Origin: Candidatus Neomarinimicrobiota bacterium
GTDB taxonomy: Bacteria > Fidelibacterota > UBA8477 > JABMPR01
Length of the DNA: 35,474 bases
Direction: 5' to 3'
NCBI GenBank assembly: GCA_034716895.1
Contig: JAYEKW010000086.1
Location: 5,175-40,648 of the forward strand
Shown here: positions 25,830 to 31,050 of the stretch, in pieces
Numbering within the stretch: position 1 is the first letter of the stretch
How the letters are laid out: every line of letters begins with the position of its first letter
Position numbers and translations under genes: made by a program
The notes under the pieces: model-generated
Seen by the model: only the letters and a program-made list of their open reading frames with translations
What the model was told of the DNA's origin: nothing
Databases searched by the model: none

Positions 25830-25842
25830 TAGTAGATATTTT

Positions 25843-26037
25843 GAGTTAGTGAGCATTTCCGGATCCTGAGTGATCTGAGTGTAACGAAGATCGTATCGAA
25901 GGGTGATGAGCTAGTGAGCATTTCCGGACCCTGAGTGATCTGAGTATAGCGAAGATCGTATCGAAGGGTGGTGAGCTGGTGAGCATTTCCGAACCCTGAG
26001 TGATCTGAGTGTAACGAAGATCGTATCGAAGGGTGAT
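25843..26037 (+). repeat. Three tandem 65-bp repeats with internal inverted repeat
   Basis: Copies start at 25843, 25908 and 25973, exactly 65 bases apart, and a fourth start (GAG) at 26038 decays at once. Differences between copies are single bases (GTAACGAAG versus ATAGCGAAG; GGATCCTGAG versus GGACCCTGAG). Each unit contains CCCTGAG and CGAAGGG, which pair, plus GATCT and AGATC inside. This resembles the short CCCTGAG...CGAAGGG hairpins scattered in many bacterial genomes. Confidence 0.85.
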
Positions 26038-26078
26038 GAGTTTGGAATTGAGATAATTAGGGGTTTGAAGATCACACG

Positions 26079-26729
26079 ATGAAAAAATTATGGGAAAAAG
26101 TGAGGATGTTTCAGGACGGTGAGATACCTGGTCCTAAATGGACAGACCCCTTATCCCTGAGTTTTCCGGTTGAGACAGAAATTGCCTTTATGGAATACTT
26201 TTTCAAACTGACCCTCACGCGATTTCGACCTGCTCTAGTCTTGGGTATGTTGCTCTACGGTTTATTCGGTGTGTTGGATTATTTATGGTTGCCGGAAGTT
26301 TTGGGCCCCTTTTTATTGATTCGATTTGGGATCGTTATGCCAATTGGTTTTGTGATCTACCTCGTCTCCTTCCGTGACATATTCAGGAAATTCTATCAAT
26401 TGTTCAGCATACTGTATATGCTGGCTGCCGGTATCGGTATCGTTATTATGACTCTCATTCAACCCCAATACACAGAGACCTATTATGTTGGGATCATTCT
26501 GGTTCTAATCTTTATCTACATCCTGTCCGGCTTGAGATTCTATTGGGCTGCTGCCAGTGGTGGGATCATTGTGATCAGCTATATCATTGGGATCCAATGG
26601 GTTACCAATGAACCCTGGTTCTATCACGTTGATAATTATTTCTTTTTAACGGGTTCTAATATGCTGTTGATGCTGGGGGGCTATTTTATGGAACTCTTTT
26701 ACCGGCGAGAATTTCTGCTGCAACGTTAG
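26079..26729 (+). CDS. Membrane sensor half of a histidine kinase (ends at an in-frame TAG)
   Basis: 216 residues. A short cytoplasmic start (MKKLWEKVRMFQDGEIPGPK) is followed by six membrane segments (ALVLGMLLYGLFGVLDYLWL, LLIRFGIVMPIGFVIYLVSF, FSILYMLAAGIGIVIMTLI, YVGIILVLIFIYILSGLRFY, ASGGIIVISYIIGIQWV, FLTGSNMLLMLGGYFMEL) ending in YRREFLLQR. This block resembles the six-span N-terminal sensor found in some adenylate and diguanylate cyclases. The TAG at 26727-26729 is followed in the same frame by LTQERETIKQINIGLEARVM and then the kinase half, so the natural protein was probably one piece. Without the kinase half it would be a membrane protein with no output domain. Confidence 0.75.
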   Translation: MKKLWEKVRMFQDGEIPGPKWTDPLSLSFPVETEIAFMEYFFKLTLTRFRPALVLGMLLYGLFGVLDYLWLPEVLGPFLLIRFGIVMPIGFVIYLVSFRDIFRKFYQLFSILYMLAAGIGIVIMTLIQPQYTETYYVGIILVLIFIYILSGLRFYWAAASGGIIVISYIIGIQWVTNEPWFYHVDNYFFLTGSNMLLMLGGYFMELFYRREFLLQR

Positions 26730-26786
26730 CTCACCCAGGAGAGGGAGACGATCAAGCAGATCAATATTGGTCTTGAAGCCAGAGTT

Positions 26787-27479
26787 ATGGATAGAACCAA
26801 CAAGCTCCAAGAGGAAGTCCTGGAACGTAAAGATGCCCAGGAAACTGCCCAAAATGCCCTGAAGCAAAAGGATGTTTTACTGCGAGAGGTCTATCACCGA
26901 ACCAAGAACAACATGAACGTGGTGATTTCATTACTTAACATGCAATCTGCTGAACAGAACAAACGTCCTGTCGAAGATGCCTTTTCTGCGATCTCAGATC
27001 GGATATACTCAATGTCACTGGTTCATGAACAGCTCTATCGCAGTGAGGATCTCAGTACGATTCGTTTTGATGAATATGTCAAAACTCTGGTTTCGCGATT
27101 GCACTATTCCATGCCAAAAGTGCCTGGTAACATCAGGGTTAGTTATGAATGTGAAGCCATTGAGATTGGTCTGGCTGAGGCAGTGCCGCTGGGATTGGCA
27201 GTGAACGAGATCGTTACCAATGCCTTTAAGCACGGATTTCCAGATGGTCGTAAAGGGCAAATTCAGATCCACATGAAAAACAACAAAATGGGTAACTTGC
27301 TGATCGAGGTTATTAACGATGGCCTGGTGTTCCTAAAAGATGTGAATATCGATAACCCGGAAACACTGGGTTTACATCTGATCAAGATGCTTATCCAGGA
27401 TCAGCTGCAGAGTAAGTTGAGCATCGTTTCAAATAAGAATGTCCGATATACAATAGAGTTACTACCCACAGAAGACTAA
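26787..27479 (+). CDS. Histidine kinase half (HisKA_2/HATPase)
   Basis: 230 residues from the ATG at 26787, in the same frame as the upstream sensor. Residues 1-30 are coiled coil. The phosphoacceptor is H37 in LLREVYHRTKNNMNVVISLL, the signature of the HWE/HisKA_2 type. The ATPase N-box is in PLGLAVNEIVTNAFKHGF (about 135-152), with the G-box at ETLGLHLIKMLI. The 3' end is intact with a normal stop (TAA). No strong ribosome site lies before 26787, so separate translation of this half is uncertain. No response regulator gene is near. Confidence 0.78.
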   Translation: MDRTNKLQEEVLERKDAQETAQNALKQKDVLLREVYHRTKNNMNVVISLLNMQSAEQNKRPVEDAFSAISDRIYSMSLVHEQLYRSEDLSTIRFDEYVKTLVSRLHYSMPKVPGNIRVSYECEAIEIGLAEAVPLGLAVNEIVTNAFKHGFPDGRKGQIQIHMKNNKMGNLLIEVINDGLVFLKDVNIDNPETLGLHLIKMLIQDQLQSKLSIVSNKNVRYTIELLPTED

Positions 27480-27514
27480 TACCAGTTGCACCTCCAGCCT
27501 GCACCCTAACTTCT

Positions 27515-27842
27515 TCAGCTTTTCCCATTTCTCTGTACTTCGATGAACTCAGCATACCACACTTAACCTGAATAATTCATAGCCACTAAGTCACCAAGAC
27601 ACAAAGTTTAATAAAATATATGCTTATCAAAAATTATCACTCACAGATGCAAATAATACTGTTTAAAATGACCTTGTTCATAACTTTAATACTTTTCGTG
27701 ACTTAGTGTCTTCGTGGCAATAATTCATGAATAATGCAGGTTAAAGTTCCTACCAGAGCTATCAGTCTCCACACTACATGCTACGCCCTGACAAGCAGCT
27801 ATGCCCGCCTATGCCAAAGTCGGTCTCCACGTTTGCAGTTAA
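27515..27842. repeat. Dispersed repeat, copy 2 (interrupted)
   Basis: ACTTCGATGAACTCAGCATA at the left and CTACATGCTACGCC, GACAAGCAGCTATGCC and AAGTCGGT at the right match copy 1 (11420-11560). The gap between the blocks is about 174 bases longer than in copy 1, and the extra DNA is the element at 27567-27740. Confidence 0.7.
27567..27740. mobile_element. 174-bp miniature inverted-repeat element with TTAA duplication
   Basis: Bounded by TTAA at 27563-27566 and TTAA at 27741-27744; the matching place in copy 1 of the host repeat has a single TTAA (11469-11472). The ends are inverted repeats: CCTGAATAATTCAT at the left and ATGAATAATGCAGG at the right. Next inside, GCCACTAAGTCACCAAGACA pairs loosely with CGTGACTTAGTGTCTTCGTGGC. 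The interior is AT-rich and has no open frame, so it would need a transposase from elsewhere. The 4-base TTAA target fits the YTAR targets reported for IS701-type elements; this family link is inference. Confidence 0.7.
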
Positions 27843-27945
27843 GTCTGTTGCAGTCTCACCGCTATTAAATATGGTTCATCATAATAGTGCATACCTGGAT
27901 ACAATCATTGAGATTTGGGGTCAATAAAATATTCTGGGGTATAAA

Positions 27946-28220
27946 GGTATAAGGGTTATAGAGGCTGTGTGAGAATAGGGACAACTCTTACCCCATGCTT
28001 TAGCTTGGGGGTGGGTATGATAACCCACTGATTCTTTGGGCTTTAGCCCAGTATTGTTGGGCTAAAGCCCTCCTTTTTGATATTTTTATAACCCCCAGGC
28101 TGAAGCCTGGGGTAAATATTAATAGTAACAGTACTATACGTAGATAACTAAAGATAATATTAGCAAGCAATTATTCCATTGCAATGAAGTTTTCACACAG
28201 CCTCTATACCCTTATATCCC
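27946..28220. mobile_element. Nested inverted-repeat element (MITE/REP-like), about 275 bp
   Basis: The outer ends pair: GAGGCTGTGTGAGAA at 27961-27975 with TTTTCACACAGCCTC at 28190-28204, extended outward by TATAAGGGTTATA and TATACCCTTATA. Inside, TTACCCCATGCTTTAGCTTG (27988-28007) pairs with CCCAGGCTGAAGCCTGGGGT (28093-28112). At the centre, GGGCTTTAGCCC (28038-28049) is the exact reverse complement of GGGCTAAAGCCC (28059-28070). There is no open frame. The GGCTGTGTGA end resembles termini of several transposon families, and the core resembles REP sequences mobilised by RAYT transposases. It could fold into a long cruciform or RNA hairpin. Confidence 0.7.
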
Positions 28221-28274
28221 TAACATCCTCGTCTACAGGTACGCATTTGGGGGAAGAGCCTTAAATATTTATTT

Positions 28275-29265: not shown

Positions 29266-31050
29266 TTATAGTTGAACAATAAGGATGACTTTCTCTTCGC
29301 CTCTCAGGACTTCCACGGTGATACGCTGACCCAGTTTCACATCTGCCATACGCCCCATATAGTCATATACATTTTTCACTGAGCGACCCTCGAGAGAGAT
29401 CATGACATCACCTTTCTGCATACCAGCAAAAGCGGCGGGTCCACCAGGCACCACACCGCCCAGCAGAAAACCATTGGCATCTGCAGCGGCAAAGTCCGGG
29501 ATGATTCCCATTTTCACCTTTCCGCGTTTACCACCCTTTGGAGGTCCTTTGGGGCCGGCTTCCAGATATTCAAAAGCTGTTTCCCTGGAGGCGATATCCC
29601 TGACCAGTTCATAGGTGAAATCAGCAATTATCTTTTCACCTTTAAAATTGATGGTTTCGATATCATCAGCAGGAGTGTGGTATTCCTCGGTAATACCGGT
29701 GAAGAAAAAGAGGACCGGGATATCTTCAATATAAAAAGTTGCCTGGTCGGAAGGGCCGTAGCCATCGGGTGTCATGGACAGTTTGAAATCATGCCCTTTT
29801 GCCATTTCAGTCAAATAGGCTTCCATTCCTTTAGCGGTACCGGTTCCGCCAACGGTCAGGATCCGGGATTTTGGGTTCAAGCGACCGATCATATCCAGAT
29901 TGAACATCTGCTTGATCTGCTTGAGGTCGATCAAGGCATTTGAGGTAAAGAATTTTGACCCCAGGAGCCCCATCTCTTCAGCTCCAAAAGCCATAAACAA
30001 GATACTGCGTTTGGGCGTGGAGTTGCTCAAGGCCAGCTTCTCAGCAATTTCCAGAACTGCGGCAACACCAGAGGCATTGTCATCTGCGCCATTATGGACA
30101 GCGATGGTGTCTGGTTTCCGCGAACCGGAGCCTTTACCGCCCCAGCCCAGATGGTCATAGTGAGCACCGATAACGATAAATTCATCCTTTAAAATTGGAT
30201 CACTGCCTGGTAAAAGAGCCACAACATTTTGGGTCGTGACTTCCTGTTGAAGCACTTCAGTTGTGACCTTCACTTGAATATCAACTGCAAAACTTTGGGG
30301 AATCAGTTGTTCATTGAGTTGGGTCTCAAGCTCGAGGATGTTTTTCCCCTTGCTGGCCAGTAATTGGTCAGCCAATTCTCTTTTGGCATGAATAACAGGT
30401 AGGGCAGCCATGGAAAAGCTTCGATCGATGAGCAACTCCATCAGTTCGTCCTTGGCATCAAATTTATTGCCATTGACAAAAATGGCACCGGTTGCACCAT
30501 GGTCACGGGCGATGAGCATTTTGTGGCGCATGGAGGAATAGTTATCGTATTTGCTTCGGGCAGATTCATTCTCAGGATTACCGCGCAGGATCATGACCCA
30601 CTTATCTTTAACATCCAGATCAGTGTAATCATTCCATTGCATCGAGTCATTTTCGATTTGAAAACCATAGCCGACAAAGACCAGATCTGCCTCCAGGCTG
30701 GAGTTCATGGAAAACACGGTCGGGGTGTAATCCTCACCAACAGTAGCAGAGATCCCTGTTGCTTTAAAACTGTTATTCGGTCCCAACTTTACGGAAGTGA
30801 TGACATCAAAGTGCTGATAACCATCATTACCCAGGGGCATTAGTCCGAACTGTTTAAAATGATCACCAATATATTCAGCAGCCAGTTTACCCTGGGGAGT
30901 TCCGGGCTTCCGGCCTTCCAATTCATCGGATGCCAGGTAAGCGATATGGTCATACAGCTCGTTTTGACTGATTTTTGCCTGACTTGATTGCATGGGCAGG
31001 GAACATTGCAGAAGCAACATACTGATAATGGTAAGCATAATATATTTCAT
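29266..31050 (-). CDS. Secreted M28-family metallopeptidase with PDZ domain
   Basis: 594 residues. Lipoprotein signal with Cys 16 (MLLLQC). A PA-like insert lies at about 105-225 (ADLVFVGYGFQIENDSMQWN, GATGAIFVNGNKFD). The M28 peptidase domain follows with its zinc ligands in order: H297 in GAHYDHLG, D323/D324 in NGADDNASG, E358/E359 in FGAEEMGLLGS, D386 in NLDMIGR and H458 in EEYHTPAD. After a Gly/Pro/Lys linker (GPKGPPKGGKRGKVKMG) comes a PDZ domain at about 515-594 (GVVPGGPAAFAGMQKGDVMI). It is predicted to cleave amino acids or dipeptides from peptides outside the inner membrane. All catalytic residues are present. GAGGA precedes the ATG. The gene is divergent from the type IX-secreted protein gene. 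Confidence 0.9.
   Translation of the reverse strand: MKYIMLTIISMLLLQCSLPMQSSQAKISQNELYDHIAYLASDELEGRKPGTPQGKLAAEYIGDHFKQFGLMPLGNDGYQHFDVITSVKLGPNNSFKATGISATVGEDYTPTVFSMNSSLEADLVFVGYGFQIENDSMQWNDYTDLDVKDKWVMILRGNPENESARSKYDNYSSMRHKMLIARDHGATGAIFVNGNKFDAKDELMELLIDRSFSMAALPVIHAKRELADQLLASKGKNILELETQLNEQLIPQSFAVDIQVKVTTEVLQQEVTTQNVVALLPGSDPILKDEFIVIGAHYDHLGWGGKGSGSRKPDTIAVHNGADDNASGVAAVLEIAEKLALSNSTPKRSILFMAFGAEEMGLLGSKFFTSNALIDLKQIKQMFNLDMIGRLNPKSRILTVGGTGTAKGMEAYLTEMAKGHDFKLSMTPDGYGPSDQATFYIEDIPVLFFFTGITEEYHTPADDIETINFKGEKIIADFTYELVRDIASRETAFEYLEAGPKGPPKGGKRGKVKMGIIPDFAAADANGFLLGGVVPGGPAAFAGMQKGDVMISLEGRSVKNVYDYMGRMADVKLGQRITVEVLRGEEKVILIVQL

Follow-up and report, generated by a model that had tools for sequence, protein, structure and literature searches.

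An interrupted histidine kinase frame

The DNA analysed here (the window, 35,474 nucleotides) lies on contig 86 of a draft genome of 3.45 Mb in 258 contigs that is 95% complete and whose close relatives are Candidatus Neomarinimicrobiota MAGs. Its forward strand carries, at 26079-27479, a frame of 466 codons in which a membrane sensor of six helices precedes a HisKA_2/HATPase kinase. Translation of 26079-27482 gave exactly one internal stop, a TAG at 26727-26729, before the TAA at 27477-27479 that ends the frame. The TAG closes the sensor half (26079-26726, 216 codons). The linker codons behind it (26730-26786) read LTQERETIKQINIGLEARVM and hold no ATG, GTG or TTG in 19 codons, so that 57 nt separate the TAG from the ATG at 26787-26789, the sole in-frame start that would keep the phospho-acceptor histidine in the product. 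An earlier note, made from the letters of the window, had described a kinase frame split by exactly one in-frame TAG, coiled-coil linker codons between this TAG and the ATG at 26787, and no other visible lesion; the translation confirms the single stop and the linker, and no further lesion was found anywhere in the 466 codons.

The kinase half (26787-27479) comprises the HisKA_2 phospho-acceptor and HATPase catalytic domains. Pfam identifies HisKA_2 with 81.1 bits against a gathering score of 22.3 (E 6.5e-23), and HATPase_c_2 with 28.9 bits against 27.4. The catalytic boxes are intact, including the H-box (REVYHRTKNN), the N-box (NEIVTNAFKHGF), NDG and a GLGL-type box, and Foldseek together with sequence search placed the HisKA_2/HWE kinases EL346 and LOV-HK (4r39/4r3a) nearest among solved structures. 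The read-through frame was modelled with AlphaFold2 (mean pLDDT 73, pTM 0.44), and the model was used for local features alone. It assigns helices to the sensor half at residues 31-70, 72-96, 106-127, 129-149, 154-176 and from 180 onward, and places residue 217, the position of the TAG, within one long helix (180-295) that would run from the last membrane span to the phospho-acceptor region. In the orthologues, as in the model, the linker runs on from the last membrane helix.

Upstream of the kinase gene lie what we take to be a DUF72-like gene and a reductase-like gene; downstream, and convergent with it, are presumably genes for a membrane protein and an M28-type peptidase. These conserved neighbours are intact in the window.

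The surrounding spacers are rich in repeats. Directly upstream of the gene, at 25842-26040, a 65-bp repeat stands in three tandem copies, and single pieces of it, 36-75 bp long, are found at eight other sites in the genome. Downstream, at 27563-27745, is a repeat of about 183 bp with palindromic ends (AACCTGaATAATTCAT.../...ATGCAGGTT). No fewer than 12 further copies, 98-99% identical, were counted in this genome and at least 30, at 91-94%, in the related genome G001; the remaining 17 genus genomes gave no match at E 1e-20. The repeat is a recently spread MITE-like element. A second dispersed repeat of about 250-400 bp, with internal hairpins and 22-nt terminal inverted repeats (27954-27975/28190-28211), occupies approximately 27866-28270; the genome has about 30 copies at 86-94%, and searches of the 18 remaining genus genomes at E 1e-20 gave none. 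Together, the two downstream repeats widen the spacer 3´ of the kinase gene to about 795 nt, compared with 10-244 nt in relatives.

Orthologues and the age of the stop

Four orthologues were found in the same genus, with identities of 72% (G016), 68% (G001), 51% (G015) and 50% (G010); for the sensor half the range is 43-73%. The G001 orthologue is divided over two contig ends (C71 and C10). The read-through frame aligns with these intact genes over its full length, which rules out a chance concatenation of two open reading frames. In G015 and G010 the gene sits between the same neighbours as in the window. The upstream ones are also shared by contig C71 of G001, and the downstream ones by contig C10 of G001 and by G016. 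The disrupting stop is missing from the orthologues at the syntenic locus: all four read through the site, with CAG in G016 and G001, CAA in G010 and GAG in G015. Related genomes therefore do carry a sense codon here, a comparison that the earlier note had proposed. That note had also named the two halves as separate genes at other loci as evidence against an interrupted kinase, and no such arrangement, nor any stand-alone sensor as sister of a split kinase, was seen in 19 genomes of the genus or a 245-genome sample of the phylum. A first scan of genome contigs with the sensor alone as query gave no match.

As a side observation on the linker, the G016 orthologue (L031:7672-9045) lacks 14 residues directly before the phospho-acceptor histidine that are present in all other copies. 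Fourteen residues amount to two coiled-coil heptads, and linker length thus varies by whole heptads.

Given the codons in the orthologues, the TAG is best read as a single C-to-T transition on the window's own lineage, and since the gene is in one piece in every relative found, a fresh nonsense mutation is favoured among the four options that the earlier note had listed without preference. We put the probability at roughly three in four (0.74) that this is a very recent nonsense mutation, present either as a young null allele or within-population polymorphism or as a just-fixed pseudogene. In this scenario, a glutamine codon CAG would have become TAG very recently on the species' own lineage, in the helical linker that joins the sensor of an orphan six-helix HisKA_2 histidine kinase to its catalytic part. 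Termination by RF1 would leave a membrane sensor without a kinase, and kinase signalling would be lost in cells with the TAG allele. We infer that the allele is real and null, and either polymorphic within the population or just fixed as a pseudogene.

How young the stop may be was estimated by neutral simulation on this gene. With substitutions as the only source of lesions, the probability of seeing no further one fell to 0.06 at 5% neutral divergence; with an assumed rate of frameshifting indels included, it was 0.05 at 3%. If the gene now evolves neutrally, these values put the age of the stop below about 3-5% neutral divergence, within the last few percent of its lineage.

Counts insensitive to the saturation of silent sites give no sign of relaxation, and the relative-rate test none of acceleration, in the window copy relative to its intact sister G016. 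Where the other four sequences are invariant, the window copy has two changes in the sensor and four in the kinase, compared with five and six in G016; changes assigned by the outgroup G001 number 13 against 16 and 14 against 21 (window against G016). In branch models, dN/dS on the window branch is 0.34 against 0.035 for the sensor (2dlnL 6.0) and 0.20 against 0.09 for the kinase (2dlnL 2.9). However, pairwise dS between the window copy and G016 is saturated at about 2, a raised branch dN/dS is also seen for the kinase half of the intact G016 gene, and omega is likewise up on the window branch for the unbroken neighbour gene at 29266-31050. Together with the relative-rate counts, which disagree with the branch models, these observations lead us to read the higher branch omega as estimation noise and to set it aside as proof of decay.

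Rival readings: consensus error, split gene and readthrough

Under the main rival to a recent nonsense mutation, the organism has CAG, and the TAG stems from an error of consensus or assembly, or from a minority strain, in this metagenome-assembled genome. The genome is a draft in 258 contigs, only one base is concerned, and the rest of the gene looks functional, all of which would fit an error. An in-frame codon-pair model was run on a 426-kb sample of the genome. It returned 19 stops flanked on either side by coding-like sequence. Most of these appear to separate ordinary tandem genes, a start codon lying no more than nine codons away, and a few have short or poor-scoring flanks; the TAG at 26727-26729 is the sole stop in the 426 kb with long, well-scoring in-frame flanks and no start in 19 codons. 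A second kinase flagged as broken by a TAA (G000 C135) proved to end normally at that codon, and none of the genome's other HATPase domains contains a true in-frame stop. Judged by these scans, the draft genome shows neither widespread gene breakage nor frequent errors, though it may contain a single one. As the 426-kb sample contained no comparable premature stop and the conserved neighbours are intact, we regard a consensus error as unlikely, and less likely than a recent nonsense mutation.

Could the TAG be decoded? RF1 is present in the genome (500 bits) and TAG terminates 6 of the 24 genes in the window, which speaks against general recoding, in line with the earlier note's remark that several normal genes end in TAG. 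A suppressor tRNA, which that note had suggested looking for, is not among the 43 tRNA genes found (all tRNA matches covered with ARAGORN, in a genome 95% complete): none has a CUA anticodon. A suppressed or recoded TAG is thus not supported. A more limited possibility is a regulatory leaky stop, in which the TAG is maintained and partly read through to give a low level of full-length kinase. Both halves of the gene still look constrained (2dlnL 4.2 against omega 1 for the kinase half on the window branch), a near-cognate tRNA-Gln(CTG) exists, and many in-frame stops of bacteria have been suggested to be read through (PMC7918605). Yet the same constraint is predicted by a very recent mutation, the absence of the TAG from every relative leaves no sign of persistence, and release factor, tRNA complement and ordinary use of TAG as a terminator all weigh against decoding. 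We therefore hold a leaky stop to be improbable, and its stronger form, fixed in the species with the sensor lacking a kinase as main product and full-length kinase made under readthrough only, to be more doubtful still.

The remaining possibility is a deliberate two-piece kinase, that is, a stand-alone membrane sensor and a soluble kinase translated from the ATG at 26787 by re-initiation or from a start of its own. What speaks for it is the ATG itself, which lies upstream of an intact HisKA_2 domain and is derived in the window copy, relatives having Ala or Lys codons there. However, the Shine-Dalgarno energy before this ATG is -2.4, equal to the median of 80 internal ATGs, while many genes of the window reach -5 to -7. 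In native E. coli gene pairs, re-initiation coupling is almost gone at about 20-38 nt, with longer-reaching synthetic coupling systems also cited (PMC10666635). The 57-nt gap exceeds this native range, and re-initiation at 26787 was rejected on the length of the gap and the background-level Shine-Dalgarno sequence. Moreover, the split arrangement occurs in no relative, and the cut would fall in a helix that is modelled as unbroken from the membrane to the phospho-acceptor region. With no early start codon, no CUA tRNA and RF1 in place, the two-piece and suppressor options of the earlier note are both unsupported, and we consider a functional split kinase the least probable reading of the locus.

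A recent nonsense mutation also has well-described precedent. In bacteria, in-frame stops about as long-lived as a population polymorphism are described as widespread, and one example is a TAG/CAG case (PMC7918605). The window gene is like these cases in that one CAG-type codon has become a stop while the rest of the gene looks constrained; it differs in that its TAG has been seen in one genome only, hence with no evidence of persistence.

The sensor module and its relatives

In its phospho-acceptor and ATPase domains, with all boxes, the kinase matches the HisKA_2/HWE kinases (PF07568/PF07536; EL346, LOV-HK 4r39, 4r3a, 5epv; PhyK NF051872), but it carries a six-helix membrane sensor in place of LOV or PAS domains. 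The G016 orthologue stays well under the NCBIfam equivalog cut-offs, with 93 of 750 bits for PhyK and 67 of 450 for LOV kinases.

The sensor has no Pfam model above cut-off. The nearest family is MASE8 (PF20968), for which the G010 orthologue reaches 20.2 bits and a weak homologue in G016 25.0 bits, against a cut-off of 26.2; no member attains the curated cut-off, and the window's own sensor gave no MASE8 match at E up to 1. No paper on MASE8 turned up in the collection of papers searched.

Homologues of the module in other Neomarinimicrobiota are attached to PAS-HisKA-receiver hybrid kinases (L112, L115), other hybrid kinases (L111, L116), a PAS array (L118) and a SpoIIE-type phosphatase (L120). 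The earlier note had likened the sensor to the N-termini of some nucleotide cyclases, and a related six-helix module is indeed found on a protein with a Guanylate_cyc (class III cyclase) domain in another genus of the phylum (L117 in G231; profile match E 1.3e-25). Exchangeable six-helix membrane modules on cyclases are established, with a receptor role proposed (PMC4821796). Class III adenylate cyclases likewise have a six-helix module joined directly to the output by a helix, whereas the output of the window gene is a kinase. By these matches, the phylum has shuffled the module between several kinds of output: kinases, a cyclase and SpoIIE phosphatases.

The window copy itself is probably an ordinary, young, broken or polymorphic gene and not a gene of a new type. 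If a nonsense allele, it would be a further short-lived in-frame stop in environmental bacteria, and the case cautions against treating the two halves as separate genes in annotation. The sensor module is common to HisKA_2 and hybrid kinases, a class III cyclase and SpoIIE phosphatases, so a ligand identified for one might help to understand the rest; this gives the finding a modest value beyond this locus.
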